A stretch of 64,000 nt of DNA from the NCBI RefSeq assembly GCF_032854445.1, contig NC_088295.1, positions 60,369,249-60,433,248 on the forward strand, in the 5' to 3' direction. Below, piece after piece: positions 25,903-64,000 of the stretch (the stretch's first letter is position 1; each line of letters opens with the position of its first letter). This DNA is from Liolophura sinensis. Its lineage: Eukaryota > Mollusca > Polyplacophora > Chitonida > Chitonidae. The translations under genes were made by a program, and so were the position numbers. The notes below the pieces were generated by a model. The model made no database searches, was not told the origin of the DNA, and saw only the letters and a list, made by a program, of their open reading frames with translations.

Positions 25903-26939
25903 AATGACACAATATAGTGTACAAAGAAACTATATAAATAGTTGAACAAAATGTGAATTTCTGTTTGATCCAAACCAGGAACCAAACACCGCTAAACAAG
26001 CCGACAAATAACGTACCACAATCTTGCACAAACAGGTATTAGTTCTCGCACAAGCCCGCAGTATGTTTGAAAAATTTAAATAATTTTATACATAATAGGA
26101 TAATATAAATTTATAACCACTAACATCTCATGATATAGGCTAATAGCCTCACACATGCAATGTAGGAAACCTTTATTACAAACATGTGGCGTGACGTAAA
26201 TCAAAACGTGGATTAAGTGGTTTTCGACAAAGCTCATTATGAGTAATTGGGTTAAGTTTTATATATGTTATATAGCCTGGTCACGATCGCTTTAAACAAT
26301 CTCCGGGCAGATCTTTTTAAATCACACGTACACAGATGTACCTACAAGAGTTATGTTTTCAAAACAGGGTACCCCCAGACTTACAAACCTGTAATCATCT
26401 GCCTGTCATTGTCGGAAACTTCTAAGGAGAGACACTATAAAGAGTGAGAGACATCGTATTAAGATATGGGCTATACCCAGTATACAGATGAGTTATGGCT
26501 TAAATGTCCGCAGGCTTTAGGAGAATTACATGAGCAGCATTTACATGTACACTACAAAATATAAGTCTGTTAATCTTAACATAAACTCTGTTGTCTAAGT
26601 GATGTTAGATGTATTCTGCTATGGCTGCGGATTGTTCTGTTAAACATAACACACATATTCTACTAATTCAACACAAAGATTCCATTAGGCTAACAAAATA
26701 ATATGTTGAATATGAAGTAATATTGTGTGCACTATATAAATGAATGCAACACTCAGACACCAGAATTTCTGTGAAAAAAGATTTTTAAGTGTAAATAGTA
26801 AATGCTTCATACGATTATGTATTTGCAAGTTTCTCCCCCCCCCCAAAAAAAAAACAAACAAAAAAACAAAAACAATTACGATTTCTTTTCGTATTCGAAC
26901 AGCAGTCAAATACTTATTTCATGTAACTAAAACGAGATA

Positions 26940-27100
26940 CGTATATGGGAAGGTCTCTCAGCAAGCTGCGGTTGGTCGTGGGTTTCCCTCGAGCTCTACC
27001 CTGTTTTCTCCCACCACAATGCTGGCCGCTGCTGTATAAGTGAAATATTCTTGAGTACGACGTAAAACATCAGTTAAATAAGTAAGTAAATAAATAAAAC
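26940..27100 (+). mobile_element. SINE-1 tail half
   Basis: GGTCGTGGGTTTCCCTCGAG, TCCCACCACAATGCTGGCCG, TATAAGTGAAATATTCTTGA and GTACGACGTAAAACATCA, ending in an AAAT-type tail. The same insertion is at the same place in copy B (40125-40282), so it predates the duplication. Confidence 0.85.
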
Positions 27101-27219
27101 GAGATAACTAAAGAATAAAGCGTGCTCGATTCAGTGGCTGTGACATCAGCATATGTACAAGTTCATCTCTAAAAATGCGGACTCTTTCTAACAGTGTAAG
27201 ATATGACAAGCTTAATAGT

Positions 27220-27420
27220 GGCAAAAAAAAAAAAAAGAAAGTACCCATTGGAGCCAGCTAAAACCCGATCAGAGCAGCAAGAAACCTTATAAGCGACAAG
27301 AAACTTCATGGCAGCCAGAGACATGATTTACGGCAAGCCTGGCGGTGTCAAATCTAACAGTGGCAAGCAAACATAATGGCGACAGAACCCTCTTGGATAG
27401 CAAGCCCGAGAATGGCAATG
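27220..27420. repeat. Degenerate about 50-bp repeats (ATGGCGGCAGAAACC type)
   Basis: Units with AAACTTCATGGCAGCCAGAG, GCAAGCCTGGCGGTGTCA and ATGGCGACAGAACCCTCTTG. Equivalent blocks are at 32897-33055, 40560-40835, 46830-46870 and 50560-50830. Confidence 0.65.
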
Positions 27421-28261
27421 TTTGCTCAAACCTATAGCTCTACATGCAGGCTCATATACGTGTTTGCAAATCCCGGAAAAAAAGAGGTGGCAGAGTTTAA
27501 GTATTTACAGTAGTCTATTCTTCAACCACAATGATAAACTTTGAAAAGTTTATGCCATGGAATACTTGCTTCTAAAAACAAATGGGGAGTACACTCTTTT
27601 GGAGAAGGTAAAGAACATCTCAAGTGTGCCTCGATGCGTGAAAAAAATATTTATAACCTTATCACTGGGCGTTTTGAAAAACTAAAGTTTAGATTAAATT
27701 GTTAGCCTCGGAACAGTTTTATCAATTTCAAAACCCCATAATATATGGTATTTTGAATAAATTAATCTCTCTCTAAAGATTGGCTTTGAATGTGTTCTTT
27801 TTGAACGCCTTTGCTATTTCGATGTTGTAAATTAGATGTCGCAATTAGATGTTGTAACTTAGGATCTGCCATCTGTAACATTAATATACTATCTTGACTG
27901 TTCCTTAGTTGTAGGTGACCCTTGTCATGGTCAAGCAGTTACTGATCAGTTATATTTTGTGAGCTATCATATTTACCACCTGTAGTTTCACACGCCATTG
28001 ATTTCTTTTTGTCCCTTGATACAGTTGTTCTAGTCTTAAATTTTAGGATATTCGTAACGATGGGTTGAAAATTTCAAGGCATTTTTGTGTTGAATGTTTG
28101 GCACCCAACACCAAAAACGATCTAATCCTCGGACTCAAAAAATGAATGTGATCAGGTGACCCGTCTTTTGGAAATATTCTTTTAAGCGCAGTGACGTGAG
28201 GTCAATTTCGCGGCCACTTCTCAAGTATTCAGCTTCAAAACACGTGACTGTCATATGATGT

Positions 28262-28356
28262 CCCTCTGCCAACCCCTGGATGGGCTTACATAACTTGGGC
28301 GCTTACAGTTGCAAAACTGACTAGATTTTCAGCGAGTGTCTGGAATCTCAACTGAA
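28262..28356 (+). promoter_or_regulatory. Promoter and non-coding exon 1 of family-2 gene A
   Basis: CCCCTGGATGGGCTTACATAACTTGGGCGC: the TATA position is weakened here to TACATAA (about 28287) compared with TATATAT in copies C-E. Exon 1 ends ATCTCAACTGAA before the donor GTAAGTTC at 28357. The acceptor GCCTTCAG ends at 29358, giving a 1,002-bp intron. The whole block is conserved in every copy. Confidence 0.65.
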
Positions 28357-29358
28357 GTAAGTTCTACTTAAATATCTGTTTACAGTTTGATTATTACACC
28401 TATGCCATTTGTTGATGATTGCAGTAATGTTTTGGTTGGGGGTTTTATTAAATAAGTACAAACGTTTCAGAACTGAATCCAAGATGAATAGGATATGGAA
28501 GCGCATCTTCATGAGATAAAGACTAGTTATTTGATTTTCTCTAGAATTTTCCCCTGTATGATTCTGATCAGTTCAATGGATGGTGGAAGCCGAATTCCCC
28601 AGGTTAAACCACCAGCATACTACTGACGGACTTTTGCAATATATATATTGGTGAATAACAACTGGCATTAAACGAACGAACGTAAAACTGCGCAAAGGCT
28701 ACGACGATAGTGAGGAATCTCGAACTGTCACCAAGGCTCAAAGAACAGACATAGTGAGGGAATCTCCAACTGTTTAAGTCCTTACATCGTGCTTTTGTGA
28801 ATTTTACTAAACTGCCGAAATGGCTATGTACAGAGTCCTCTTCTAAGAACTAGTCCTTCGTAGCGTAACTATGACTAAACAAAGATCCGTTTGCAAATGA
28901 ATCATCCACCTTTAGTGGATTGTTAGCATTGCCACTTTAGCTGGTGTATTGAGAAAATATTAATCTCAGTCTTTTTAGCTGATCATCGACGTAAAATCAT
29001 TTGTGAAATGAATATGTAGTTTTCACTAAACATTATCGTACAATATAATCAAAATCGTTAAGTCTTTGCTATGTGTTTGTTTACACAGAAACGTTAAAAA
29101 TTTAAGTAAACATCAGTTAAAAATATCTTGAATAGTATAAATATAATATTTTGATTTTTTTTTTCAACTGAATGCGGTTAAATTGTAGATTGTCAGATGT
29201 AATGTTTTAGTGTAGTGTATTTTGCCTATGACATCACACAATTTTAGTGGCATTTGAACAGATGTTTGACTTCATTTGGGGGGGGGGGAGGGTTCCTTAT
29301 AAATAGTTGTGACGCATGACAAAATAAGGAGGTCATAAGGAAATATTTTTGCCTTCAG

Positions 29359-29754
29359 AACAGACTGAACATCTCAAAAAGATGAGGGCATGTCTTCTCC
29401 TGCTGTGTGTTGTGCTGCTGTGCGTGCTCGTCTCACTCGAGGCCCACCCACTCAGTCGTGATGTTGGAAGTGGAGGTGGAGACGTGGAGGTGGTGAAGGT
29501 GGAGGCGGGGAGGTGGTGGTGGAGGTGGAGATGGAGGCGGGGGAGGTGGAGGTGGAGGCCGGGGGAGGTGGTGGTGGAGGTGGAGATGGAGGCGGGGAAG
29601 GTGGAGGCGGCGGTGGTTTTGTTGGTGTCTTTGATGTCGCACCAGGAGGTGGTGGCGGTGATTTTGGTGTGTGTGGGGGGGGGGGGGAGGGAGCAACTCA
29701 AAAGACAGCGGTAGTGATGAAGATGATAGTGGTGTCCCAGGTGGCGGACGTTGA
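29359..29754 (+). pseudogene. Family-2 gene A: secreted Gly-rich/acidic protein, frame disturbed
   Basis: The coding exon starts after TTTTGCCTTCAG. ATG is at 29382, 24 nt into the exon as in the other copies. Residues 1 to about 21 (MRACLLLLCVVLLCVLVSLE) form a strong signal peptide, followed by AHPLSRDVGSGGG. After that the annotated phase drifts into Trp/Arg-rich nonsense (RWWWRWRWRR), while another phase reads GGGGGGGGDGGGEGG..GFVGVFDVAPGGGGG. A third phase, after a G homopolymer near 29675-29690, reads GSNSKDSGSDEDDSGVPGGG then a stop at 29752-29754. The expected domain order for the family is signal, Gly-rich, acidic Ser/Asp tail. Thus at least two frameshifts, one in a G run, separate signal, glycine block and tail. 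This is either a decayed gene or homopolymer miscalls. A secreted structural role is inferred. Confidence 0.6.
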
Positions 29755-31039: not shown

Positions 31040-31133
31040 ATCGATCCTTGGATGGGTTTGTATAACCTGGAACATTTTACAATCGTCAGCAAAGTCAAGA
31101 AAACTTCTGCAAGTGTCTGGATCCTCATTTGAA
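31040..31133 (+). promoter_or_regulatory. Promoter and non-coding exon 1 of the 34.2-kb RGGY-repeat gene
   Basis: CCTTGGATGGGTTTGTATAA with a TATAA at about 31061, then exon 1 ending GTGTCTGGATCCTCATTTGA before the donor GTAAGTTG at 31134. It is clearly homologous to 28262-28356 and 61620-61713. The acceptor TTTGTCTTCAG ends at 34159, giving an intron of about 3.0 kb. The upstream G/C-rich run (30960-31000) replaces sequence present in the other copies. Confidence 0.65.
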
Positions 31134-31519
31134 GTAAGTTGTGTTTAAATATTTTAGAGTGTCTGTTTGCAGAGTAGTTATTGCATCAATATGTCAACTG
31201 GGTAGTGTTTTTAGGCCGGTAAAGTTCGAGGCCGGGAAAATGCTGGCATAAGGGGTGTCGTACGTTGATTTTGTGCACCACGATACATTTTAATTCTATA
31301 TGACAACGACAAAATAATCAGTGGATGAAGCTGTACTTTCATCGTTTGTAATACTTTTATACTGCCATTCCTCTCAATCGAATCTAATTGTTAACGTATC
31401 CACGCATGATTATTTCACAATCCGTATTTTCCATTAACATGTTTTCTGTACGTTTGAAAACAATTCAGTTATAGTAAAACGTCCCGCTACCATTTTGTTT
31501 CGTTCTCGTCCTTTATTTA

Positions 31520-31843
31520 GTTTGACCCATTAGTAGAACCTCAAGTTTCACCCATTAGTAGAACCTCAAGTTTAACCTATTAGTAGAACTTCAAGTTTTA
31601 CCCATTAGTAGAAGCTCATGTTTAACCCATTGGTAGAACCTCAAGCTTAACCCATTAGTAAAACCCCAAGTTTCACGGATTAGCAGAACCTCAAATTTCA
31701 CACATTAGTAGAACGTCAAGTTTCACCCATTAGTAGAACTTGAAAGTTTCACACATTTGTAGAACCTAAAGTTTCACCATTAGTAGAACCTCAAGTTTTA
31801 CCCATTAGTAGAACTTCAAGTTTAACCCATTAGTTGAACCTCT
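31520..31843. repeat. 24-bp tandem repeat
   Basis: About 13 imperfect units of ACCCATTAGTAGAACCTCAA plus GTTT, inside the proposed intron of the RGGY-repeat gene. Confidence 0.95.
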
Positions 31844-31844
31844 T

Positions 31845-32895
31845 TTATTCGATAGTTATTTTACGACATACCAAATGACATTTCACGTATATGAAGGGCC
31901 AACGGATGTCCGTCCGTTGATCAATGGGGTTCAGGTCTCCAATATTGCAGCTCTCCATGGTAAGGATGCGGTTTACAGTCAAAGGGGTTTATAAAGTGTT
32001 TGGGGAGAATGTTGGAGAGGGGTAGGGCTTCTGGCAGATTTATTCAAACCTTACCTAAACAGATGTGCCACTTTGACGCATCTGTCTTATTTATCACAAA
32101 AGGAATCCCTGAACTGAAGACCGTGTGAATCATCTGCCCGTCGTTGACAGAAACTACTGAGGCGTTACATCAAACTGCGCGGAACAGGTTAAGATATTGT
32201 CTGCCCACTATACAGGAGAACTATGGCTTAAAACACCAAAGCTTGATGCGATTATGCGCTTTAAGTTTTTTTTTCAAAATAATCATTGTGTGCAATTATG
32301 CAAAATGATTAACAGGACGTTCAGCATTCACGCTTTTAAACCTGTAAGAGTTTTGCTATGCCTTTGGCAAGAGATTGACGAACTTTTCACCTGTAACAAA
32401 CACGGATGCACACCATATCGTCAAATTGAATAGAACTTAAGAATAAGAGATAAACAACTGCTGCTTTTCACACACAAGAATCTTGGAACGTACAAGTTCA
32501 TCGTTAGTTGTGAAATTTATCCGGAACTAGGTATTCCGTCAAACTGATTTACTAGTAGATGTGATAAGACTATTGGTTATACCATTACAGACCACTGTAC
32601 TAACATTTATATAACATGTCGGCTCATTGGTATCAGATATTATTGAGTTATTCCCGTTATTCGACCAACCATGGACCACTGTGACTTCGGGATCGCATCC
32701 AGCTTTGACTGATTCGTAAACAGTTTTTATGTTTAGAGGTTTTGAATTGAATTTCACCCATAGGTTTGTTTCTCGTCTGTATAGTATTTCTAATTTGTTT
32801 CATATACTGATGCATCATTCCCCATGTTTCATCTGATTACCGATGAAACCGATGAAAGAAATTAAAAACAAATTAATTATGAAAAATAAAACAAA
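31845..32895. other. Intron sequence with duplicated-segment remnants
   Basis: A GATAGTTATTTTACGACATACC / ATGAAGGGCC remnant at 31850-31910 also occurs at 44310-44380. ATCATCTGCCCGTCGTTGAC near 32130 matches the segment-start landmark of copies A and B. Otherwise unassigned; a 78-codon frame at 32197-32433 is not supported. Confidence 0.5.
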
Positions 32896-32896
32896 A

Positions 32897-33055
32897 TGAT
32901 GGCGGCCAGAACCCTGATGAGCGGCGAGCCTGACGACGGCACAAAATTTGATGGCGGCGAAAACCCTCATGAACAGTGAGCCTGATAGGGGCAGCCACTT
33001 TGATGGCGGCAGAAACATGATGGACAGCAAGCCCGATAATGACAAAGTTTACAAA
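32897..33055. repeat. 52-bp tandem repeat, three copies
   Basis: GATGGCGGC starts at 32898, 32950 and 33002, each followed by AGAAACC.TGATG..CAG.GAGCCTGA. It belongs to the same degenerate family as 27220-27420. Confidence 0.85.
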
Positions 33056-33690
33056 GACCTTCCCATTGCAAAATTGCATATGTATTTACAAATCCGGCAC
33101 ACGTTACATCTATAGGGCATACATTGATACAGAATCAGTGCCAAACGTATGTATGCCTTTTGTCTTGTGTTATAATTATTACAAAGCCATAAGCACATGT
33201 TGTCTATGTTCGTGTTTGGAAAAACGCATGACTTTGGCATGAAAGAACCTTTATTGTAGTATTGCAGTTTTTCTGTATAATGGGTATTTTAACTACGATA
33301 ACTTGCAGTAAATTACGAGATTCCCGAAATGACGATTCACCTGATACTGCCAGTAAACTCTTGAAACGCAAAAGATCCAATTACTCATTCGATACGCTCA
33401 TGACCAGGCATTAGCATATGGTTGTTCTACCATTCAAGGAACACAAAACCTTATGCATTCAGTCTAGCATTCAGTACACATGTACTATGACCATGAAAGC
33501 AAATAATCAAATTATTAGCTTACAAAAATGTGATATGAATTCAAAAAAAAAAAAGAAGTCACGTGTCACTTATCTATCTTTTGTGCGTGTCTTCATACCG
33601 TAACAAGCCACTGTGTTCTTTTTCATACCGAATTAGGTAGATGCATATGTAAATAATAATTTTTTACGTTTGTAAAAGAAACTCCTTAGA
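33056..33690. other. Unassigned intron sequence
   Basis: AT-rich with no recognised gene or repeat. Short frames here are unsupported. Confidence 0.4.
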
Positions 33691-33694
33691 ATTA

Positions 33695-33820
33695 ACGCCC
33701 AGGTGGTCTTTGGTTTCCCCCATTTCTGACCGGTTTCCTCCCACCCTAATGCTGACTGCCATCGTATAAGTGAAATATTCTTGAGCTCGGCGTAAAACAC
33801 CAATCAAATAAATAAATAAT
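33695..33820 (+). mobile_element. SINE-1 tail half
   Basis: GGTTTCCTCCCACCCTAATG, CGTATAAGTGAAATATTCTT, GAGCTCGGCGTAAAACACCA and an AAATAAATAAATAA tail. Confidence 0.85.
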
Positions 33821-34159
33821 TCCCCTTAATACTTTTAAATGAAACCAGATGTTGGTGCAAATGTGATTGTCACACATAATCATCCTGTATCAATCGTTAT
33901 TTCCATCACATACTCAAAATACGCCTGGCTTGTTAGTGACAGACTTTATAGTTGAATTTTGTTTTCGCTTAATTGAATGCTGACAAATGTGTGGATTGTA
34001 AGGTGGTAATGTTTTTTAATACTGTATTTTGCCCATCATAACACACAGCTTGTAAGATGTCAGATGTTTACTTCATGTGAGTGTTTTTCGTTTAAATCTT
34101 GGTAGTTGAATGAGACATGACAACATCACGAGGTTATAATGAAATGTCTTTGTCTTCAG

Positions 34160-35242
34160 AAACGACTGGACATCCCAACAAGATGAGGGCATGTCTTCTG
34201 TTGTGCTGTGTGGTGCTGTCGTGTCTACTCGTCACACTCTGATGCCCGTCCTTTCAGGCGTGGTAAAAGGTCCCTTGGCGCCAGTGGTGGTGGAGGCGGT
34301 GGTGCTGAAGGCGGAAAAGGTGACAAACCAGAGGGCGGTGATGAACATGGCGACAAACCAGATGGTAATGACATACATGACGGTCATGACAAACCTAATA
34401 ACGGCGGAAAACCTAATGGGTTTGGTCGTGGTGGATATCCTCGTGGCGGACGTAGAGGTGGCAGACGTGGAGGTGGAGGCGGAGGCGGTGGTGGTGGAGG
34501 CGGGGAAGGTGACAAACCAGAGGGCGGTGATGAACATGGCGATAAACTAGATGATAATGATAGAGGTGACGGTCATGACAAACCTAAAGACGGCGGAAAA
34601 CCTGATGGTTTTGGTCGTGGTGGATATCCTCGTGGCGGACGTAGAGGTGGCAATGGAGGCAGACGTGGAGGTGGAGGCGGTGGTGGTGGAGGCGGGGAAG
34701 GTGACAAACCAGAGGGCGGTGATGAACATGCCGACAAACCAGATGGTAATGACATAGGTGACGGTCATGACAAACCTAATAACGGCGGAAAACCTGATGG
34801 TTTTGGTCGTGGTGGATATTCTCGTGACGGACGTAGAGGTGGCAGACGTGGAGGTGGAGGCGGTGGTGGTGGAGGCGGGGAAGGTGACAAACCAGAGGGC
34901 GGTGATGAACATGGCGACAAACCAGATGGTGATGACATAGGTGACGGTCATGACAAACCTAAAGACGGCGAGAAACCTGATGGGTTTGGTCGTGGTGGAT
35001 ATCCTCGTGGCGGACGTAGAGGTGGCAGACGTGGAGGTGGAGGCGGTGGTGGTGGAGGCGGGGAAGGTGACAAACCAGAGGGCGGTGATGAACATGGTAA
35101 CAAACCAGATGGCAATGACATAGGTGACGGTCATGACAAACCTAAAGACATCGAGAAACTTGATGGTGGTTACACTGGATTTGGTCGTGGTGGATATCAT
35201 CCTAGCGGACTTAGAGGTGGCATCGGAGGCTCCACATTTTGA
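34160..35242 (+). CDS. Family-2 gene with KPEGGDEHGDKPDG / RGGYPRGGRRGG repeats; one frameshift
   Basis: The exon follows acceptor TTTGTCTTCAG; ATG is at 34183. The first 19 residues (MRACLLLCCVVLSCLLVTL) are a family-2 signal peptide, then TGA at 34240. From 34241 the +1 phase is open for 333 codons (DARPFRRGKRSLGASGGGGG onward), and DARPFRRG aligns with EAHPLSRD of gene A, so a single extra T separates signal and mature parts. The mature part holds five repeats of 61-64 residues (starts 34322, 34511, 34703, 34886, 35069): an acidic/Lys segment (GDKPEGGDEHGDKPDGNDIG), an HDKPK.GGKPDGFGRGGYPR linker, a GGRRGGRRGG basic patch and a polyglycine run. All repeat lengths are multiples of three, so the frame was under selection until recently. 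No cysteines are in the repeats. Alternating acidic and RGG blocks suggest a charged extracellular matrix or adhesive protein, or a condensate-forming one. The ortholog is unknown, and the lone indel may be a sequencing error. Confidence 0.65.
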
Positions 35243-47995: not shown

Positions 47996-48139
47996 CCCGC
48001 TACCAATTCAACAAGACCCCAGTGGCCATGCCAGTACCTAAAACATCCAATCCAATGAGGGCCCTTCATGTAAGAAAGTAAAATATCATTTGGTATGACG
48101 TAAAACACCAATCAAATAAATAACATTTTATTCGCCGGT

Positions 48140-48270: not shown

Positions 48271-48517
48271 AGGAAAAGAACAAAACAAACATGGTAGTGG
48301 GAATATTGACAGAAATTCAACCATTTTGAAACTTGCACACAGAATATATAATGTATTAACAGTTTGTGAAATAATTAGCTTTGCCTGCATACATTGATAA
48401 TTAGTTTCCTTTGAGAGAAAATGTTGCACATTAGGTATTACAGATAAAGACATAATTGCATAAAATGGTTGTTTTGCGGTTTTGATATTGTATTCAAGAG
48501 TACGATGTCGCTTCAAA

Positions 48518-49090
48518 TCAATATCCGCCACCTGGTGAAACCCCAATGTTTTCATGGTCATCTTCGTTACTATGGCTGTCTTCTGAGTTTCTACTTTCCC
48601 CGCCTCCACCAAAACCAACGCCCCCACCTACTGGTGGGACACCAATGTTTCTGTGATCATATGAATCAATGTCGCTGTCTTCACAATTGCTGCTTTCCCC
48701 GCCTCCGCCAAAACCACTGCCACCATCACTGAAATGGCTATCGGAGTCATCACGCTGATTCGTCACCTCTTCCACCACCATCAAAACCACCGCCGCCTTC
48801 ACCTTCACTTCCACTTCCACCTCCACCTCCACCGCACTCGCCTCCGCCTCCATCTACACCTCTCTAACGTCGACGTCCACGCCCACCTTTCCCACGTCTC
48901 CTGGGTCCACCTCCATGTGCCCAGACTCCGTCTCCACCTCCATCTGCCCAGACTCCGTCTCCACCTCCCCCGCCTCCACCTACAACATCACGCCTGAGTA
49001 GGTGGGCCTCGATTGAGACGGAAATGCACAGCAGCACAACACACAGCAGGAGAAGACATGCCCTCATCTTGTTGAGATGTTCAGTCTGTT
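48518..49090 (-). pseudogene. Family-2 gene C: signal + Gly-rich frame, acidic tail out of phase
   Basis: The exon follows the acceptor complement at 49091-49092; ATG is at 49067. The first frame gives 67 residues: signal MRACLLLLCVVLLCISVSIE, then AHLLRRDVVGGGGGGGDGVW, two ADGGGDGVWAHGGG-type repeats and an Arg/Gly-rich end (RGKGGRGRRR), with TAG at 48864-48866. After this stop the same phase continues glycine-rich (VDGGGGECGGGG) to a second stop. Another phase, ending at 48518, reads DDSDSHFSDGGSGFGGGGES, a YDHRNIGVPPVGGG linker, a second GGGGESRNSEDSHSNEDD module and a GGGY end. The acidic tail is intact and repeated, so either the gene is frameshifted or a second splice joins the parts. 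The TAG is shared with copies D and E, so it predates their split; a short functional product of 67 residues is the other option. Confidence 0.6.
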
Positions 49091-50143
49091 CTGAAGGCAA
49101 AAATATTTCCTTATGACCTCCCTATTTTGTCATGCGTCACAACTACTTAAAAGGAAAGCCCCCAAATGAAGTCAACATCTGTTCAAATGCCATTAAAAGT
49201 TGTGTGATGTCATAGGCAAAATACACCACAGTAATATATTACCATCTGACAATCTACAATTTGACGGCATTCAGTTCAGCGAAAACAAGAATCAAAAACA
49301 AGTAAAAAGTATTTTGAGATACAGTTGTTGATGATATTTTTTACTGATGTTTACTTAATTTATTTACCGTTTATGTGTAAACACACACTTAGCGAAGAAG
49401 TAATGATTTTTATTACATTGGACAATAATGTTCAGTGAACACTACGTATTCATTTCACAAATGATTTTTCGTCGATGATCTGCTATAAACACTGAGATTA
49501 AAAGAAAAAGAAAATAGCATTTTCTCAACACACCAGCTACAGTGGCAATGCTAACAATGCAGGAAAGGTTGCACCATATGATTCATTTGCAAAAGGCATC
49601 TTTGTTCAGTCATAGTTAAGCCACGGAGGATTAGTTCTTAGAAGAGCAGTTTAGTAAAATTGACAAAAACATGATATAAAGATTTAAACAGTTGGAGAAT
49701 ACCCCGCTCTGTTCCTTGAACCTTGGTGACAGTTCGAGATTCGCCCACTATCTCTGTTCCTTGAACCTTGGGGACAATAAGCCGCCGACGGCATTAGTCG
49801 TAGCTTGTTTTTTACCAATATATATATATATTGCAAAAGTCCGTCATTAATTTGCTGTTGGTTTACCCGGGGGAATTTGGTTTTCACCATCCACTAAACT
49901 GACCAAAATCGTACAGGTAAAACTTCTAGAGAATGAAGTTAAACAAAAATCAAATAACCACTCTACTAGTCTTCTCTCGTGAAGATGCGCACCCATATCC
50001 TATTTAACTTGGACTGAATTCTGAAATGTTTGTAATTATTTAATAAAACCTCTACCAAAGCATTACTGCAATCACCAAAAAATGGCATAGGTGTAATAAT
50101 CAAACTACAAACAGATATTCAAACAATTGTAACTAGAACTTAC

Positions 50144-50235
50144 TTCAGCTGAGGTTCCAGACACAGGCAGAAAATCTTGTCAGTTTTGCTCGCAACTGTA
50201 AAAGCGCCCAAGATATATAAGCCCATCCAGGGTCG
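50144..50235 (-). promoter_or_regulatory. Promoter and non-coding exon 1 of family-2 gene C
   Basis: On the minus strand: CCTGGATGGGCTTATATATC with TATATAT at 50219-50213, then exon 1 ending GGAACCTCAGCTGAA before GTAAGTTC (donor at 50143). The intron is about 1.05 kb to 49091. Confidence 0.7.
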
Positions 50236-50559
50236 TAAGGTGGGATATCATGTAACAGTCACGTGTTTTGGAAACTGAATACTTGAGAAGTGGCCGCGAA
50301 ATTGACTTCACGTCACGGCGATTAAGAGAATATTTCCAAACGATGGGTCGCATATTTTTATTTTAGTCCGAGGATTGGATTGATTGGGTGCCAAACATTC
50401 AACACAAAAATGCCTTGAAATTTTCGACCCATGGAAAGGTTACATATATATTTTTCTCAAGTATCCAGACACACTTTCGACGTTCTTTACCGTCTTTAAA
50501 AGGGTGTACGCCTCATTTATTTTTACAAGTATGTATCCCATGCCATAAATCGCCTTTCA

Positions 50560-50830
50560 ATTGTGGTTGAGCCAGCATGCTTGCAGTACATCAGGTTCCT
50601 GGCTGCCGCCAAGTTTCTTGGAGTGTATCATGTTTTATGCAGGCTGCTTCTGTAGAGCGAGCCGGTGATCAGGTTTCTGGTCGCCTTTCAGTTTGGTGTT
50701 GCTATTAGATTTGCAGCCGTCAGACTTACCGTAAATCATGTTTCTGGCTGCCATTAAGTTTCTTGTCGGTTATCAGGTTTCTGGCTGCTCCGATCGGGTT
50801 GCAGCAGGGATCCGGTCGGCTTTATTCCCT
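50560..50830. repeat. Degenerate about 50-bp repeats (copy C)
   Basis: GGTTCCTGGCTGCCGCCAAG, CAGGTTTCTGGTCGCCTTTC and TTTCTGGCTGCCATTAAGTT. About 140 bp of this block is missing in copy D (58305-58390). Confidence 0.65.
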
Positions 50831-51119
50831 TTTTCTTGTTTGTTTGTTTGTTTGCTGTTGTTATATTTTTGCCACTATCAGCCTTGTCCTTCATTATACA
50901 TATATTTTTTTAAATTTCTTTTATTGGGGAGTTACATGTTCGCCATACTTAAATATAGTTCACATAAATGACAACAGCGTCTATGAAAACGTTCCTCGCC
51001 ACCGTTAATGTGGAATTTTATACACTGTTAGAAAGAATCCGTGTTTTTTAGAGATGAACTCTTACATATGCTGATCTGTCAGCCACTGAATCGAGCACGC
51101 TTTATTCTTCAGTTATCTC

Positions 51120-51285
51120 GCTTTATTTATTTATTTATTTATTTATTTGATTGATGTTTTACACCGTACTCAAGAATATTTCACTTGGCGGTCAGTGTTA
51201 TGGTGGGAGGAAACCGGGTAGAGCTCGGGGGAAACCCACGACCATCCTCAGGCTGTGCCAGTCCTTCCCTCGTAGTGTCACGTTT
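51120..51285 (-). mobile_element. Partial SINE-1
   Basis: A (TTTA)n start, TTGATTGATGTTTTACACCG, CTCAAGAATATTTCACTTGG, TGGGAGGAAACCGGGTAGAG and CCACGACCATCCTCAGGCTG. It is orthologous to the SINE tails at 26940 and 40125 seen in inversion. Confidence 0.85.
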
Positions 51286-51519
51286 CAGTTAAAATAAAAT
51301 AAGTCATTGTTTGGTGTTCAAATACGACAAGAAGACGTACATTTTTTGGAAAGAAACTTGCAAATAAATATATTAACGGCAGGAAGCATTTACTATTTAC
51401 ACTCAAAAATCAATTTTAACAGAAATACTGGTGTCTGAGTATTGCTTGAATGCATTCTATTATTATGACACACTACTCTGTCATATTCAGCATAACATCC
51501 TGTTAGTCTAATGGAATCT

Positions 51520-51720
51520 TTACTTATTTATTTATTTGATTGGTGTTTTTCCCCGTACTCAAGAATATTTCACTTATACGACGGCGGCCAGCATTATGGT
51601 CGGAGTAAACCGGGCAGAGCCCGGATAAAACCCACGACTATCCGCTGGCTGCCGACAGACCTTCCCACTTACGGCCGGGGAGGAAGCCAGCATGAGCTGG
51701 GCTTGAACTCACAGCGACTA
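51520..51720 (-). mobile_element. Partial SINE-1, head truncated
   Basis: TTTGATTGGTGTTTTTCCCC, CTCAAGAATATTTCACTTAT, GGCGGCCAGCATTATGGTCG and GCATGAGCTGGGCTTGAACT. It is present only in copies C and D (59087), so it inserted after they split from A and B. Confidence 0.85.
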
Positions 51721-52664
51721 ATGCAATCTTAATGTTGAATCAATAGAATATGTCTTTTATATTTAACAGAACAATCCGCTGCCATAGCAAAATACATATG
51801 ATATCACTCAGACAACAGACTTTCTGTTAAGATTAACAGATTAATTTTTTTGAGTGTACATGTAAATGCCGCTTATGTAATTCTCCTAAAGCCTGCGGAC
51901 ATTTAAGCCATAACCCGTCTGTATACTGTGTATAGCCTATGTCTTAATACGATGTCTCTCGCCCTTTATTTTGTCTCTCCCTGGAAGTTTCTGATAACGA
52001 CAGGTAGATGATTACATGTTTGTCAGACCTGGGGTATCCTGTGTTGTAAACAGGTAGAAATACCGGCACATATACCTGTTCCTATATTTTTATAAATTGC
52101 TAGACATTATTCACCGTCTTCAGCCGTGTCAACAAGCTTGCCAGAGTTATTCCCTCTGAAGCTCACAGTCACAAGCAGTATTGCTGATTCTGATGGAATA
52201 TTTGATGATTTTGACTGTATATTTGTGAATAAATGGATTTAATTGTTTGGTGTATGAACTAAAACAATTCATTGTAATAAGTCGTAAGACTTCTCTGAGA
52301 GTTATACTGGAACAATATAGACTGGGAATCTATGTCGTTTTATAAATAGAATTACATCATTGAATGAATCATTGCATTATTGAGAGTAAATCCATATTTC
52401 TGTAGTGCTGTCTCCAAATACCCGAGGTAAATATCGGTCTCATACGTTACCAAAAGACTATAAAAATTCAGTTTAATTCAATATGTTGTTAAAATTAGTG
52501 AAATATATATATTTACAAACCTATGCATGTGCCTAAAGTGTCGCATGGTTTAGTTAATTATTGTATATTGTTGTATATTATTGTTTACAAAGTGGATACA
52601 TGGTCGACGCTGATTGCCTCACAGTGGAGAGAAAGGTTTCCTGGGTTAAATCATGCTGGCTTGG

Positions 52665-53615: not shown

Positions 53616-54312
53616 TTCACCCACTGATTATTTTGTAGTTGTCATATAAAATCAAAATGTATGGTGTACCAATGCGACCTCTTTTGCCTCCACCTCGACG
53701 TTTGTCTCCACTGCAACCTCTTCGTCCGCCACGAGGATATCCACCACGACCAAAACCATCAGGTTTTCCGCCGTTATTAGGTTTGTCATGACCGTCACCT
53801 ATGTCATTACCATCTGGTTTGTCCCCATGTTCATCACCGCCCTCTGGTTTGTCACCTTCCCCGCCTCCACCACCACCGCCTCCACCTCCACGTCTGCCTC
53901 CATTGCCACCTCTACGTCCGCCACGAGGATATCCACCACGACCAAACCCATCAGGTTTCTCGCCGTCTTTAGGTTTGTCATGACCGTCACCTATGTCATT
54001 ACCATCTGGTTTGTCCCCATGTTCATCACCGCCCTCTGGTTTGTCACCTTCCCCGCCTCCACCACCACCGCCTCCACCTCCACGTCTGCCACCTCTACGT
54101 CCGCCACGACGATATCCAGCACGACCAAAACCATCAGGTTTTCCGCCGTCTTTAGGTTTGTCACGTCCGTCACGTATGTCATCACCATCTAGTTTGTCCC
54201 CATGTTCATCACCGCCCTCTGGTTTGTCACCTTCCCCGCCTCCACCACCACCGCTTCCACCTCCACATCTGCCACCTCTACGTCCGCCACGAGGATATCC
54301 ACCACGACCAAA
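53616..54312 (-). pseudogene. 5'-truncated copy of the RGGY-repeat gene
   Basis: On the minus strand the frame enters at FGRGGYPRGGRRGG near 54312 and runs through about three and a half repeats of the 34.2-kb protein (for example GDKPEGGDEHGDKLDGDDIR, FGRAGYRRGGRRGG, GDKPDGNDIGDGHDKP). It ends in a distinct C-terminus (CSGDKRRGGGKRGRIGTPYI, and onward to TGA at 53616-53618). There is no signal peptide, ATG or acceptor: upstream of the first repeat the phase meets stops at once. The repeat frame is uninterrupted. The 3' flank matches that of the 34.2-kb gene in inverted orientation (53420-53615 against 35243-35795). It is best read as an inverted duplicate cut inside the first repeat. The tail differs because of a one-base shift near the end relative to the 34.2-kb copy. 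Confidence 0.7.
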
Positions 54313-54718
54313 TCTAAATCACTTAATCTATATTTTGGTCAGCGTCAAGTCACATGTTCGTGACAAAAGTTTCCTACACTGTATGTAGGAAACCACTGGC
54401 CTATGTCATACGATAATAATGGTTACATGATATCTTTTTATGTTTTATAAAATATTTCAATTTTCTTTCCACCTTTAACCTTTGTTTTCATCTCTGCTTT
54501 CTTACAGCATGTATCTTTCCGTAATACACAAGTAGTGTAACTCCGAAAAACGAAAGCTTCATTTTGATTCAATATTTCAGCATTTCAATATGTCATCATC
54601 AGGAGCAATATAAAATAAGCAGCAACGACATATACATGTATAGGGCTAGGAATAACACAGGATCTTTAGATGCTTTTAACCCATTGTTTAGGGCTAGGCC
54701 TACGTCAACAAATACAAA

Positions 54719-55440: not shown

Positions 55441-55497
55441 CTCTCCAATCACGTGATATAACCCCCCCCCCCCCCCCTTCATATCTCGCTGGAGGGG

Positions 55498-55750
55498 GGA
55501 CTCCTTGGCTTAGTTGGCTAGCCCACTAGCGCAGCATAATGACCAAGGAACCTCTCACCAATGCGGTCGCTGTGAGTTCGAGTCCTCCTCTTCGGCCATA
55601 CGTGGGAGGTCAGCAGCAACCCTCAGAAGGTTGTGGGTTTCCCCCGGGCTCTGCCCGGTTTCTTCCCACCATAATGCTGGCCACTGTGGTATAAATGAAA
55701 TATTCTTGAGTAAGGCGTGGAACACCAATAAACTGAATCAAATAAATAAA
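55498..55750 (+). mobile_element. SINE-1, near full length (copy D)
   Basis: Same insertion as 47745: CTTAGTTGGCTAGCCCACTA, GTCGCTGTGAGTTCGAGTCC and AAATGAAATATTCTTGAGTA. It is preceded by a C homopolymer of about 17 at 55461. Confidence 0.9.
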
Positions 55751-56273
55751 ACCCGCTACCAATTCAACAAGACCCCAGTGGCCATGCCAGTACCTAAAAC
55801 ATCCAATCCAGGGAGGGCCCTTCATGTAAGAAAGTAAAATATCATTTGGTATGACGTAAAACACCAATCAAATAAATAACATTTTATTCGCCGGTCAAAA
55901 GCACTGAAGAAGATTTCCTCCAAGCCCAGTTTCCTTCAACCTTCATGCCGGCCGCTGTTTATAGGTGAAATATTCTTTAGTATGTCACCAATAAAACACC
56001 AATGAAATCAATGAAATAAATAAAAGAGGAAAAGAACAAAACAAACATGGTAGTGGGAATATTGACAGAAATTCAACCATTTTGAAACTTGCACACAGAA
56101 TATATAATGTATTAACAGTTTGTGAAATAATTAGCTTTGCCTGCATACATTGATAATTAGTTTCCTTTGAGAGAAAGTGTTGCATATTAGGTATAAGTGA
56201 TAAAGACATAATTGCATAAAATGGTTGTTTTGCGGTTTTAATATTGTATTCAAGAGTACGATGTCGCTTCAAA

Positions 56274-56829
56274 TCAATATCCGCCACCTGGTGAAACCCC
56301 AATGTTTTCATGGTCATCTTCGTTACTATGGCTGTCATCTGAGTTTCTACTTTCCCCGCCTCCACCAAAACCACCGCCCCCACCTACTGGTGGGACACCA
56401 ATGTTTCTGTGATCATATGAATCAATGCCGCTGTCTTCACAATTGCTACTTTCCCCGCCTCCGCCAAAACCACTGCCACCATCACTGAAATGGCTATCGG
56501 AGTCATCACGCTGATTCGTCACCTCTTCCACCACCATCAAAACCACCGCCTCCCACCACTTCCACCTCCACCTCCACCTCCACCTCCACCGCACTCGCCT
56601 CCGCCTCCATCTACACCTCTCTAACGTTGACGTCCACTCCAATACCAGCCTCCACGTCCATTTCCCCCGGTTCCACCTCCATCTGCCCAGACTCCGTCTC
56701 CACCTCCCCCGCCTCCACCTACAACATCACGCCTGAGTAGGTGGGCCTCGATTGAGACGGAAATGCACAGCAGCACAACACACAGCAGGAGAAGACATGC
56801 CCTCATCTTGTTGAGATGTTCAGTCTGTT
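56274..56829 (-). pseudogene. Family-2 gene D: signal + Gly-rich frame, acidic tail out of phase
   Basis: ATG is at 56806 in an exon starting at 56829. The first frame has signal MRACLLLLCVVLLCISVSIE, AHLLRRDVVGGGGGGGDGVW, ADGGGTGGNGRGGWYWSGRQ and R, then TAG at 56621-56623, giving 61 residues. One ADGGGDGVWAHGGG unit is missing relative to copy E. The acidic tail ends at 56274 in another phase: DDSDSHFSDGGSGFGGGGES, DIDS/GIDSYDHRN and IGVPPVGGGGGFGGGGESRN, then SHSNEDDHENIGVSPGGGY. The polyglycine stretch before the tail differs in length from copy C, but the relative phase problem persists. Its promoter and splice sites are intact. It could be translated as the short form only, or be recently dead. 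Confidence 0.6.
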
Positions 56830-57877
56830 CTGAAGGCAAAAATATTTCCTTATGACCTCCCTATTTTGTCATGCGTCACAACTACTTAAAAGGAAAGCCC
56901 CCAAATGAAGTCAACATCTGTTCAAATGCCATTAAAAGTTGTGTGATGTCATAAGCAAAATACACCACAGTTAAACATTACCATCTGACAATCTACAATT
57001 TGACGGCATTCAGTTCAGCGAAAACAAGAATCAAAAACAAGTAAAAAGTATTTTGAGATACAGTTGTTGATGATATTTTTTACTGATGTTTACTTAATTT
57101 ATTTACCGTTTATGTGTAAACACACACTTAGCGAAGAAGTAATGATTTTTATTACATTGGACAATAATGCTCAGTGAACACTACGTATTCATTTCACAAA
57201 TGATTTTTCGTCGATGATCTGCTATAAACACTGAGATTAAAAGAAAAAGAAAATAGCATTTTCTCAACACACCAGCTAAAGTGGCAATGCTAACAATGCA
57301 GGAAAGGTTGCACCATATGATTCATTTGCAAAAGGCATCTTTGTTCAGTCATAGTTAAGCCACGGAGGATTAGTTCTTAGAAGAGCAGTTTAGTAAAATT
57401 GACAAAAACATGATATAAAGATTTAAACAGTTGGAGAATACCCCGCTCTGTTCCTTGAACCTTGGTGACAGTTCGAGATTCGCCCACTATCTCTGTTCCT
57501 TGAACCTTGGGGACAATAAGCCGCCGACGGCATTAGTCGTAGCTTGTTTTTCACCAATATATATATTGCAAAAGTCCGTCATTAATTTGCTGTTGGTTTA
57601 CCCTGAGGAATTTGGTTTTCACCATCCACTAAACTGACCAAAATCGTACAGGTAAAAATTCTAGAGAATGAAGTTAAACAAAAATCAAATAACCACTCTA
57701 CTAGTCTTCTCTCGTGAAGATGCGTACCCATATCCTATTTAACTTGGACTGAATTCTGAAATGTTTGTAATTATTTAATAAAACCTCTACCAAAGCATTA
57801 CTGCAATCACAAAAAATGGCATAGGTGTAATAATCAAACTACAAACAGATATTCAAACAATTGTAACTAGAACTTAC

Positions 57878-57970
57878 TTCAGCTGAGGTTCCAGACACAA
57901 ACAGTAAATCTTGTCAGTTTTGCTCGCAACTGTAAAAGCGCCCAAGATATATAAGCGCATCCAGGGTCGT
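57878..57970 (-). promoter_or_regulatory. Promoter and non-coding exon 1 of family-2 gene D
   Basis: TATATAT at 57953-57947 on the minus strand within GATGCGCTTATATATCTTGG. Exon 1 ends CAGCTGAA, with donor GTAAGTTC at 57877 and an intron of about 1.05 kb to 56830. Confidence 0.7.
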
Positions 57971-58689
57971 AAGGAGGGATATCATGTAACAGTCACGTGT
58001 TTTGGAAACTGAATACTTGAGAAGTGGCCGCGAAATTGACTTCACGTCACGGCGCTTAAGAGAATATTTCCAAACGATGGGTCGCATATTCTTATTTTAG
58101 TCCGAGGATTGGATTGATTGGGTGCCAAACATTCAACACAAAAATGCCTTGAAATTTTCGACCCATGGAAAGGTTACATATATATTTTTCTCAAGTATCC
58201 AGACACACTTTCGACGTTCTTTACCGTCTTTAAAAGGGTGTACGCCTCATTTATTTTTACAAGTATGTATCCCATGCCATAAATCGCCTTTCAATTGTGG
58301 TTGAGCCGTAAATCATGTTTCTGGCTGCCATCAAGTTTCTTGTCGGTTATCAGGTTTCTGGCTGCTCCGATCGGGTTGCAGCAGGGTCGGCTTTATTCCT
58401 TTTTTTTGTTTGTTTGTTTGTTTGCTGTTGTTATGTTTTTGCCACTATCAGCCTTGTCCTTCAGTATACATATATTTTTTTTAAATTTCTTTTATTGGGG
58501 AGTTACATGTTCGCCATACTTAAATATAGTTCACATAAATGACAACAGCGTCTATGAAAACGTTCCTCGCCACCGTTAATGTGGAATTTTATACACCGTT
58601 AGAAAGAATCCGTGTTTTTTAGAGATGAACTCTTACATATGCTGATCTGTCAGCCACTGAATCGAGCACGCTTTATTCTTCAGTTATCT

Positions 58690-58850
58690 CGCTTTATTTA
58701 TTTATTTATTTATTTGATTGATGTTTTACACCGTACTCAAGAATATTTCACTTGGCGGTCAGTGTTATGGTGGGAGGAAACCGGGTAGAGCTCGGGGGAA
58801 ACCCACGACCATCCTCAGGCTGTGCCAGTCCTTCCCTCGTAGTGTCACGT
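58690..58850 (-). mobile_element. Partial SINE-1 (copy D)
   Basis: Identical layout to 51120-51285, with one TTTA unit fewer. Confidence 0.85.
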
Positions 58851-59086
58851 TTCAGTTAAAATAAAATAAGTCATTGTTTGGTGTTCAAATACGACAAGAA
58901 GACGTACATTTTTTGGAAAGAAACTTGCAAATAAATATATTAACGGCAGGAAGCATTTACTATTTACACTCAAAAATCAATTTTAACAGAAATACTGGTG
59001 TCTGAGTATTGCTTGAATGCATTCTATTATTATGACACACTACTCTGTCATATTCAGCATAACATCCTGTTAGTCTAATGGAATCT

Positions 59087-59288
59087 TTACTTATTTATTT
59101 ATTTGATTGGTGTTTTTCCCCGTACTCAAGAATATTTCACTTATACGACGGCGGCCAGCATTATGGTCGGAGTAAACCGGGCAGAGCCCGGATAAAACCC
59201 ACGACTATCCGCTGGCTGCCGACAGACCTTCCCACTTACGGCCGGGGAGGAAGCCAGCATGAGCTGGGCTTGAACTCACAGCGACTAA
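59087..59288 (-). mobile_element. Partial SINE-1 (copy D)
   Basis: Identical layout to 51520-51720, including the CCCCGTACTC change and the head truncation before GCGACTAATGCAATC. Confidence 0.85.
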
Positions 59289-60704
59289 TGCAATCTTAAT
59301 GTTGAATCAATAGAATATGTCTTTTATATTTAACAGAACAATCCGCTGCCATAGCAAAATACATATGATATCACTCAGACAACAGACTTTCTGTTAAGAT
59401 TAACAGATTAATTTTTTTGAGTGTACATGTAAATGCCGCTTATGTAATTCTCCTAAAGCCTGCGGACATTTAAGCCATAACCCGTCTGTATACTGTGTAT
59501 AGCCTATGTCTTAATACGATGTCTCTCGCCCTTTATTTTGTCTCTCCCTGGAAGTTTCTGATAACGACAGGTAGATGATTACATGTTTGTCAGACCTGGG
59601 GTATCCTGTGTTGTAAACAGGTAGAAATACCGGCACATATACCTGTTCCTATATTTTTATAAATTGCTAGACATTATTCACCGTCTTCAGCCGTGTCAAC
59701 AAGCTTGCCAGAGTTATTCCCTCTGAAGCTCACAGTCACAAGCAGTATTGCTGATTCTGATGGAATATTTGATGATTTTGACTGTATATTTGTGAATAAA
59801 TGGATTTAATTGTTTGGTGTATGAACTAAAACAATTCATTGTAATAAGTCGTAAGACTTCTCTGAGAGTTATACTGGAACAATATAGACTGGGAATCTAT
59901 GTCGTTTTATAAATAGAATTACATCATTGAATGAATCATTGCATTATTGAGAGTAAATCCATATTTCTGTAGTGCTGTCTCCAAATACCCGAGGTAAATA
60001 TCGGTCTCATACGTTACCAAAAGACTATTTACCTGGGAGTCGATAAACAGAGAGCAAAGCAAAGCCTATATTCTTCATGTATCAAGGTCATAAGTCTGGG
60101 TTTTTAAAAATCCACTGCATTACAAAGGTTACACCACTGAAGCGATTCAGCTATGCATCGGTTTTCTGCAATAAATGGGTGGGTCTTAGCAGGGTAAATT
60201 CGTTATATGGTTACTTAGTGATAGGATATGGAAATATATGGTGTCGGTAATCTTCATATTTACTGACGACATATATTTGCGTATCCTGTCACTGGGTAAC
60301 CATGTAGCTAATATTACCCTCCTGTGACCCACTTAACCATCATAATTATATGCAACGATAGCCGGCCCAGCCCAATACGCATGCCCACCAAAAAGCCGAT
60401 AAGCTATATAGCTTGTTTATTGAGTTAACACGATAATGGAATGTCAACAGATTCTTTCAGCTATCCACCTCACGACAGTTCAAGCGCCCGTATCCCAATA
60501 TACAAATTAGCTCCAATAAAAATTCAGTTTAATTCAATATGTTGTTAAAATTAGTGAAATATATATATTTACAAACCTATGCATGTGCCTAATGTGTCGC
60601 ATGGTTTAGTTAAGGTGTATGTTATTATTCACAAAAGGGATACAGAATCGACGCTGATTGGCTGACAATGGAGATTTGCTTGGTTAAACCACGCACGCTT
60701 GGTC

Positions 60705-61545: not shown

Positions 61546-61619
61546 GGTGAGGACAATTTCGTGGCCACTTCTCAAGTATTCACTTTCAAAACACGTGACT
61601 GTCACATGATATCCCTCCT

Positions 61620-61713
61620 CGCGCCCCTGGATGGGCTTATATATCTTGGGCGCTTTTACAGTTGTGAGCAAAACTGACAAGATTTTCTGCCTGTGTCTGG
61701 AACCTCAGCTGAA
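61620..61713 (+). promoter_or_regulatory. Promoter and non-coding exon 1 of family-2 gene E
   Basis: TATATAT at 61638-61644 in GGATGGGCTTATATATCTTG. Exon 1 ends GGAACCTCAGCTGAA, with donor GTAAGTTC at 61714. The acceptor TTTTTGCCTTCAG ends at 62726, giving a 1,013-bp intron. A conserved CACGTGACTGTCACATGATA upstream (about 61595) contains an E-box-like CACGTG present in all copies except the diverged 31-kb one. Confidence 0.7.
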
Positions 61714-62726
61714 GTAAGTTCTGTTTACAATTGTTTGAATATCTGTTTGTAATTTGATTATTACACCTATGCCATTTTTTGGTGATTGCAGCACTGCTTT
61801 GGTAGGATATGGAAGCGGACCTTTATGAGAGAAGACTAGTAGAGTGGTTATTTGATTTTTGTTTAACTTCATTCTCTAGAATTTTTACCTGTACGACTTT
61901 GATCAGTTTAGTGGATGGTGAAAACCAAATTCCCCAGGGTAAACCAACAGCAAATTAATGACGGACTTTTGTAATATATATACTGGTGAAAAACAAGTGG
62001 CGTTGAACGAATGAAAGTAAAACTGCGCAAACACTACGACTAATGCCGTCGGCGGCTTATTGTCCCCAAGGTTCAAGGAACAGAGATAGTGGGCGAATCT
62101 CGAACTGTCACCAAGGTTCAAGGAACAGAGCGGGGTATTCTCGAACTGTTTAAATCCTTATATCATGTTTTTGTGAATTTTACTAAACTGCTCTTCTAAG
62201 AACTAATCCTCCGTGGCTTAACTATGACCGAAGAAAGATCCCTTGTGCAAATGAATCATATGGTACCACCTTTAGTGGATTGTTAGCATTGCCACTGTAG
62301 CTGGTGTGGTGAGAAAATGCTATTTTCTTTTTCTTTGAATCTCAGTCTCTATAGCAGGTCATCGACGAAAAATCATTTGTGAAATGAATACGTAGTGTTC
62401 ACTGAACATTATCGTCCAATGTAATAAAAATCATTACTTCTTCGCTAAGTGTGTGTTTACACTTAAACGTTAAAAAAAAATTAAGTAAACATCAGTAAAA
62501 AAAATATCGTCAACAACTGTATCTCAAAATACTTTTTACTTGTGTTTGATTCTTGTTTTCGCTGAACTGAATGCCATCAAATTGTCAGATGGTAATGTTT
62601 AACTGTGGTGTATTTTGCTTATGACATCACACAACTTTTAATGGCATTTGAACAGATGTTTTGATTTTAAGTAGTTGTGACGCATGACAAAATAGGGAGG
62701 TCATAAGGAAATATTTTTGCCTTCAG

Positions 62727-63320
62727 AACAGACTGAACATCTCAACAAGATGAGGGCATGTCTTCTCCTGCTGTGTGTTGTGCTGCTGTGCATTCCCGTC
62801 TCAATCGAGGCCCACCTACTCAGGCGTGATGTTGTAGGTGGAGGCGGGGGAGGTGGAGACGGAGTCTGGGCAGATGGAGGTGGAGACGGAGTCTGGGCAC
62901 ATGGAGGTGGAACCGGGGGAAATGGACGTGGAGGCTGGTATGGGCATGGACGTCGACGTTAGAGAGGTGTAGATGGAGGCGGAGGCGAGTGCGGTGGAGG
63001 TGGAGGTGGAGGTGGAGGTGGAAGTGGAAGTGAAGGTGAAGGCGGCGGTGGTTTTGGTGGTGGTGGAAGAGGTGACAAATCAGCGTGATGACTCCGATAG
63101 CCATTTCAGTGATGGTGGCAGTGGTTTTGGTGGAGGCGAGGAAAGTAGCAATTATGAAGACAGCGACATTGATTCATATGATCACGGAAACATTGGTGTC
63201 CCACCAGTAGGTGGGGGCGGTGGTTTTGGTGGAGGCGGGGAAAGTAGAAACTCAGAAGACAGCCATAGTAACGAAGATGACCATGAAAACATTGGGGTTC
63301 CACCAGGTGGCGGATATTGA
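62727..63320 (+). pseudogene. Family-2 gene E: signal + Gly-rich frame, acidic tail out of phase
   Basis: ATG is at 62750. The first frame gives 70 residues: signal MRACLLLLCVVLLCIPVSIE, AHLLRRDVVGGGGGGGDGVW, two GGG-DGVWA.GGG repeats, GGNGRGGWYGHGRRR, then TAG at 62960-62962. The phase stays glycine-rich after the stop (VDGGGGECGGGGGGGGGGSG, then GFGGGGRGDKSA, stop). The acidic tail is in another phase up to 63320: DDSDSHFSDGGSGFGGGEES, DIDSYDHGNIGVPPVGGGGG, GGGGESRNSEDSHSNEDDHE and NIGVPPGGGY. Promoter, both splice sites and signal peptide are intact, so transcription is plausible. Options: a short functional secreted glycine-rich peptide with the tail now 3' UTR, an unseen second intron joining tail and signal, or decay. 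The tail's conserved acidic phase in three copies argues that it was coding until recently. Confidence 0.6.
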
Positions 63321-63529
63321 TTTGAAGCGACATCGTACTCTTGAATACAATATTAAAACCGCAAAACAACCAGTTTATGCAATTATGTCTTTATCACTAA
63401 TACCTAATATGCAACATTTTCTCTCAAAGGAAACTAATTATCAATGTATGCAGGCAAAGCTAATTATTTCACAAACTGTATGTTAATACAGGTACTTGGC
63501 CATTGGGGTATTGTTGAACTGGTAGCGGG

Positions 63530-63748
63530 TTTTATTTATTTGATTGGTGTCTTGCGCCGTGCTCAAGAATATTTCATTTATACCACAGCGGCCAGCATTA
63601 TGGTGGGAAGAAACCGGGAAAACCCACAAGGTTGTTGACAGACCTCCTCACGTACTTTCAGAGAGAAAGCTGGGTTCGAAATCCCAGCGACGGCATTGGT
63701 GAGAGGTTCCTTGGTCATTACGCTGCCCTAGTGGACTAACCACTAGTC
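63530..63748 (-). mobile_element. SINE-1, near full length with body deletion
   Basis: TTTGATTGGTGTCTTGCGCC, GCTCAAGAATATTTCATTTA, ACAGCGGCCAGCATTATGGT, GAGAGGTTCCTTGGTCATTA and CTAGTGGACTAACCACTAGT, next to a C homopolymer of 10. Confidence 0.85.
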
Positions 63749-63769
63749 CCCCCCCCCCCCAACGTTATA

Positions 63770-64000
63770 TTAAGTAAGTGGGGAGGGGCCATTTTTTTAC
63801 TCCGGCTATACCGGTTTCCTTCTGTTCATAAATCTAACCGCATATATAATCAGGCATATAAAAAGTGAAACGTTCTTGGTACGGCATTACACACCAATCA
63901 TGTTAAGTCAATTCACGGTAAATAAAAATTATAGTACATTTTTTCCCCGCATTGAACACACTTCAGTGTTACCCTTTATACATTTAGTGTTTTAAGGTTT
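63770..64000. repeat. AGTGTTTT-rich block, start, cut by window end
   Basis: CTCCGGCTATACCGGTTTCC, CTGTTCATAAATCTAACCGC, GGCATATAAAAAGTGAAACG and TTTAGTGTTTTAAGG match 44730-44960 directly. Confidence 0.75.

Follow-up and report, generated by a model that had tools for sequence, protein, structure and literature searches.

The window analysed here is a 64,000-nucleotide stretch of the genome of the chiton Liolophura sinensis (C1:60,369,249-60,433,248, C1 being a chromosome-scale scaffold) from assembly GCA_032854445.1, which comprises 609.5 Mb (609,464,459 bases) in 632 scaffolds or contigs and for which the species name was later amended to Liolophura sinensis (PMC11068029; PMC12441733). It carries a cluster of related loci, termed family 2, which apparently represents a small, lineage-restricted gene family for secreted glycine-rich proteins, together with a pair of genes of another family, termed family 1. 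Nine family-2 loci were recognized (A-F, I, G and H), all of them on one scaffold (Table 1), and the repeats in the family measure 183-192 nt. The family-2 proteins have no Pfam match at an E-value of 0.1, and a search of the PDB returned no matches.

Loci A-F have a common layout, in which a TATA-like box, found at all six, is followed by a short non-coding exon 1, an intron of 1-3 kb, an acceptor, and a signal peptide with an MRAC-type start. A preliminary description of the window had proposed an amplified family with shared architecture, and this is borne out by a 191-nt block spanning the acceptor and signal peptide, for which homology across copies lies at E = 1e-23 to 1e-89, far above chance. 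The molluscan origin assumed there is likewise upheld, the window being from a chiton. The five exon 1 donors listed there (loci A, B, D, E and F) are base-exact ends of exon 1 before GTAAGT, and the CTTCAG acceptor near the ATG was located 23 nt upstream of it in A, B, C and F, the four loci for which this distance was determined; these acceptors score 4.8-4.9 in a generic splice model, and donors 4.7. The exon 1 block is homologous in A, C, D and E (E at most 4e-68), while no match to the exon 1 block of B was found in the same search. The uniform layout with MRAC described for all six loci holds for the TATA-like boxes and the MRAC-type starts, but not for locus C in full, which is without a donor and reads MRAY.

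Table 1. Family-2 and family-1 loci and copies of a short interspersed nuclear element (SINE)-like sequence (window positions, unless a C1 coordinate is given; ORF, open reading frame)
Feature	Position	Strand	Details
Locus A	28288-29745	+	TATA-like TACATAAC 28288-28295; exon 1 end 28356; intron 28357-29358; 5' untranslated region 29359-29381; ATG 29382; 110-amino-acid ORF; degenerate acidic tail in another frame
Locus B	31060-35242	+	Exon 1 end 31133; intron to 34159; ATG 34183
Locus C, pseudogene	42410-43950	+	Donor lost near 42488 (CTGAAATAAAA); start 43592; TGA 43682-43684
Locus D	48518-50219	-	TATATAT near 50215; exon 1 end 50144; ATG 49067; ORF 49067-48864; out-of-frame acidic tail, to 48518
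Locus E, duplicate of D at 7.7-kb offset	56274-57955	-	Exon 1 end 57878; ATG 56806; ORF 56806-56621; out-of-frame acidic tail
Locus F	61639-63320	+	TATATAT 61639-61645; exon 1 end 61713; intron to 62726; ATG 62750; ORF end 62962; out-of-frame acidic tail, to 63320
Locus I, front-less inverted KPEGG array	53617-54318	-	Three units and RGRIG C-terminus; without signal peptide or start
Duplicated segment with D	47735-52460		Paired with 55491-60033, which carries E
G, broken partial copy, type A-like	C1:48.928 Mb (48.926-48.931 Mb)	-	
H, broken partial copy, type B-like	C1:48.9236 Mb	-	
Exon 1 and intron fragment	C1:65.241 Mb		Interrupted by SINE-like insertion
Family 1, copy 1	1442-2843	+	ATG 2622, preceded by TATA, non-coding exon 1, intron and acceptor; MKTTFILCAVFLVCLLLTSET and DNGG repeats, intact
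Family 1, copy 2	9209-11100	+	Same layout as copy 1; ATG 10840; intact MKTSIILCAVFLVCLLLTSET and NG/DNGG repeats
SINE-like copies	2187-2308; 26.95-27.1, 29.97-30.17, 33.7-33.82, 35.8-36.0, 44.4-44.6, 46.3-46.5, 47.8-48.0, 51.5-51.7, 55.6-55.75, 59.1-59.3, 63.5-63.7 kb		

All three frames of each copy were translated, and in none of the copies as assembled (A-F and the partial copies) is the signal peptide continuous in frame with the advertised payload; the protein with a constant front and a variable payload that had been proposed is hence encoded at no locus. In A, the ATG frame coincides with the glycine frame for about 33 codons and, being shifted, reads VEVVKVEAGRWWW thereafter. B, the KPEGGDEHGDKPDG gene, has a one-base insertion in the signal peptide relative to both A and H, which leads to a TGA at codon 20 (34240-34242), and the repeat frame that holds its five KPEGGDEHGDKPDG/RGGY units, 351 amino acids long and open to 35242, has no ATG. 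The donor of C is destroyed, with CAGCTGAA followed by ATAAAA in its place, a TGA occurs at codon 31, and the acidic tail is in another frame with more stops. In D, E and F the same TAG ends the ORF, at codons 68, 62 and 71, respectively (67, 61 and 70 amino acids), and the NSEDSHSNEDD acidic tail lies outside the ATG frame; upstream of this stop the lengths differ by 27 and 9 nt, both multiples of three, and E changes frame after it. G has kept the glycine tract and is without exon 1 and acceptor, with a deletion that shifts the frame ahead of the tail and a TGA within the tail, and H has lost both the ATG and the donor. Position and type of the damage vary across A, B, C, G, H and the group of D, E and F, which indicates several independent events. 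The combination that marks secreted proteins with a repetitive low-complexity domain and silk-like proteins, namely a signal peptide and a low-complexity domain in one frame, is absent from A, B and C, present in reduced form in D, E and F (a short glycine stretch) and complete in family 1. The hallmarks of duplicated (unprocessed) pseudogenes were found, namely a retained intron, stops, frameshifts, loss of a donor or ATG, and a neutral ratio of non-synonymous to synonymous differences per site (pN/pS). As judged from sequence, most family-2 copies are pseudogenes, a status that is clearest for C, G and H, follows from the frame for A and B, and is uncertain for D, E and F.

The front of the units had, moreover, been regarded as specially constant. 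Whole units were aligned, and the identities of front, intron and 3' flank were contrasted using Fisher tests. Between F and A, identity is 89% from the TATA box to exon 1, 86-88% in the intron, 92% in the signal peptide and 88% in the 3' flank, and between F and G it is 85% in the signal peptide, 81% in the intron and 89% in the 3' flank. The signal peptide is better conserved in the A-G pair (P = 0.03), the intron is better conserved than the front in the F-C pair (P = 0.01), and the tests for other pairs are non-significant, with no consistent excess in the front. Copying of whole units thus accounts for the apparent constancy, which matches that of intron and flank. The segments bearing D and E are mostly 97-99% identical, and include ~1.3 kb at 100% identity (51.1-52.35 kb versus 58.69-59.92 kb), which points to recent gene conversion or to a haplotype or assembly mosaic.

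Tests based on pN/pS found no purifying selection on the signal peptide, tail or repeats of family 2. The ratio is at least 0.8 for the signal peptide in all pairs, none being significantly under neutrality, 1.8 for the F-G acidic tail and at least 1.5 for the short ORF of D, E and F. In the KPEGG units, 23 of 31 changed codons are non-synonymous, compared with 75% expected (P = 0.84; 99 well-aligned bases), and the chance of seeing zero stops after 36 substitutions is ~0.48; a first-pass pN/pS of 0.54 for these units was dropped, as poorly aligned poly-Gly ends had been included. The substitutions in family 2 appear to fit neutral drift, and the operating secretion cassette with a rapidly changing payload envisaged in the preliminary description is not supported, given the broken frames and changes that look neutral.

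Family 1, which falls outside the part of the window covered by that description, serves as a comparator. Only two copies were found in the genome, with an acceptor ~26 nt upstream of the ATG, and both ORFs are intact, encoding MKT..LCAVFLVCLLLTSET followed by DNGG/NG repeats. Their introns cannot be aligned with each other, whereas the signal peptide has a pN of 0.10 versus a pS of 0.56 (P = 0.0002), indicative of purifying selection, which demonstrates that the method reveals constraint where it is present. A constant front with changing repeats is therefore, by sequence, better supported in family 1 than in family 2.

Copies elsewhere were sought with genome-wide probes for six parts, namely the acceptor/signal-peptide DNA, exon 1, the signal peptide, the acidic tail, the KPEGG unit and the 3' flank. 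No intact copy was found by this search, in which missing matches are not proof of absence. Outside the window, matches occur only at C1:48.92 Mb (G and H) and at C1:65.24 Mb (a fragment), and these had been overlooked, as had the KPEGG array of locus I (53.7-54.3 kb, minus strand). G and H lie 5 kb apart, like A and B, and the order of A-type then B-type is kept at 48.92 Mb. A common 335-bp element (91%) is located near the ends of both distant sites. The idea that the copies at 48.93 and 65.24 Mb are halves of one gene cut by a 16-Mb inversion was rejected, because the partial copies overlap by ~100 nt and differ by 13% there.

Taken together, the cluster is quite probably explained mainly by birth-and-death decay of a secreted low-complexity gene family, the assembled copies of which lack a signal peptide joined to a full payload. 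The ancestor would have had a TATA promoter, a non-coding exon 1 of ~40 nt, an intron of ~1 kb and a single coding exon for a signal peptide, a tract of glycine, and repeats of acidic or KPEGG/RGGY type, the protein presumably being secreted; the front and low-complexity payload of the preliminary description may thus stand as this ancestral design, but not for the present copies. As the homology of introns and flanks shows, whole units were copied, through segmental duplications, inversions and partial copies. The payload was then altered by gain and loss of repeats and by indels in the glycine-coding tract, frame-breaking indels and stops built up, and some copies lost splice or start signals. 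If transcribed and spliced, D, E and F would give rise to truncated glycine-rich secreted precursors of 61-70 amino acids. By analogy with the class, family 2 might have a structural or biomineral role.

Several observations weigh against decay. In D, E and F the promoter, donor, acceptor and signal peptide are all still intact, the F-G tail alignment is gap-free across 229 nt, and tests over 29 codons have low power. The single insertion in B may represent a rare allele or result from misassembly. In addition, the KPEGG frame is open over 351 amino acids in B and ~229 amino acids in I, and the unit lengths (183, 189 and 192 nt) are all multiples of three, from which we infer that the arrays were coding during expansion and lost function recently; by sequence, they were probably coding until recently. 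Such open arrays, along with the intact donor, acceptor and MRAC start of A, B, D, E and F and the well-documented occurrence of secreted repetitive low-complexity proteins in molluscs (PMC4897951), would also suit a cluster that is amplified and active, with a single promoter/exon/signal-peptide cassette for the expression of fast-diversifying structural payloads of shell, sclerite, mucus or adhesive. However, payload and signal peptide share a frame at none of the loci, the substitution patterns look neutral and the front is conserved no better than the intron, which makes an active cluster very unlikely. It is rather unlikely that D, E and F are living shortened genes, in which an ancestral premature stop yielded a secreted Gly/Trp precursor of 61-70 amino acids and the truncated form was amplified. 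The common TAG position, the differences in multiples of three ahead of it (27 and 9 nt), the frame change of E only after it and the intact promoter and splice signals are in line with this possibility, yet the pN/pS of the short ORF reveals no constraint, and young duplicates could merely inherit a common stop and tail. More doubtful still is the further step that the stop in the D/E/F ancestor made a new short secreted Gly/Trp peptide, with the payload shed and the front kept as the shortened form was amplified.

The frame breaks might also be apparent rather than real. With HiFi coverage of 14x and a heterozygosity of 1.2% in the sequenced animal (PMC11068029), both the breaks and the D/E duplication could be assembly artefacts, and the fully identical ~1.3 kb within D/E would fit a haplotype mosaic as well; this is highly improbable, given that the breaks vary by locus, lie for the most part away from homopolymers and are in some cases substitutions (loss of a donor or an ATG, stops), and that G and H, as independent copies, are broken too. 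Unrecognised introns in exon 2 could formally remove the stops and frameshifts of D, E, F and G and thereby restore full-length proteins, and in F a candidate donor (2.7) and acceptor (-1.0) join the frames. Nevertheless, the candidate acceptors score far under real ones, the best sites disagree among the near-identical D, E and F, the candidates in A, B and C are very poor (best totals of -9 to -16 versus +4.7 to +4.9 per real site) and the purine-rich tract has no polypyrimidine stretches, so that such introns are extremely improbable. Rescue of all copies by GT-AG introns was rejected, as the sites are weak and inconsistent. Birth-and-death decay is thus retained as the preferred explanation of the cluster.

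The window contains further repeats and open frames. A dispersed sequence, probably a SINE, occurs in many copies; its tail is conserved (GCCGTACTCAAGAATATTTCACTTATACGACGGCGGCCAGCATTATGGTGGGAGGAAACCGGGCAGAGCC), and copies are found immediately 3' of most family-2 units. Long minisatellite arrays occupy 1-1290 (31-bp units) and 5044-6700 (32-bp units), the latter being open for 367 codons on the minus strand, which is implausible as a gene, and a tandem array with units of ~134-137 bp is found at 22044-23235. Fragments judged by eye to be retroelement-like are located on the minus strand at 19547-20084 (reverse-transcriptase-like, PISLLSLSKIIEKF) and 23709-24194 (gag-like, KVKDAKTAASLADEYQLNHE). 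An open frame of 151 codons at 6768-7223 on the plus strand has several hydrophobic stretches (MGRPRIPPHFLILENSTSLYK..) and possibly encodes a small membrane protein.

Among known systems, the KRMP and shematrin proteins of pearl oysters are shell matrix proteins that are secreted and have repetitive sequences of low complexity (for a review, see PMC4897951), but their genes are highly expressed and intact, which by description sets them apart from family 2, where no intact copy was found. In the related chiton Acanthopleura granulata, SilkSlider identified 31 silk-like genes, some of which are expressed in the girdle (PMC7850002); like the family-2 design, the silk-like proteins combine a signal peptide with a low-complexity domain, a likeness by description, although the copies in the window are broken. 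RTMP1 from the radular teeth of Cryptochiton stelleri is likewise a secreted glycine-rich repetitive chiton protein, of 539 amino acids, Gly/Ser-rich with WF-rich and His-rich regions and one region predicted to be disordered (PMC6351634), whereas the family-2 payloads are rich in Gly, Asp, Glu, Lys and Arg and have neither WF-rich nor His-rich regions. For repeat-rich mollusc genes, impressions of a constant front with a variable payload need to be checked for frame and for intron divergence, the latter because recent whole-unit duplication mimics constraint. The cluster itself illustrates the birth and death of genes within a secreted protein family of a chiton, and it adjoins family 1, for which constraint on the signal peptide alongside changing repeats is supported.

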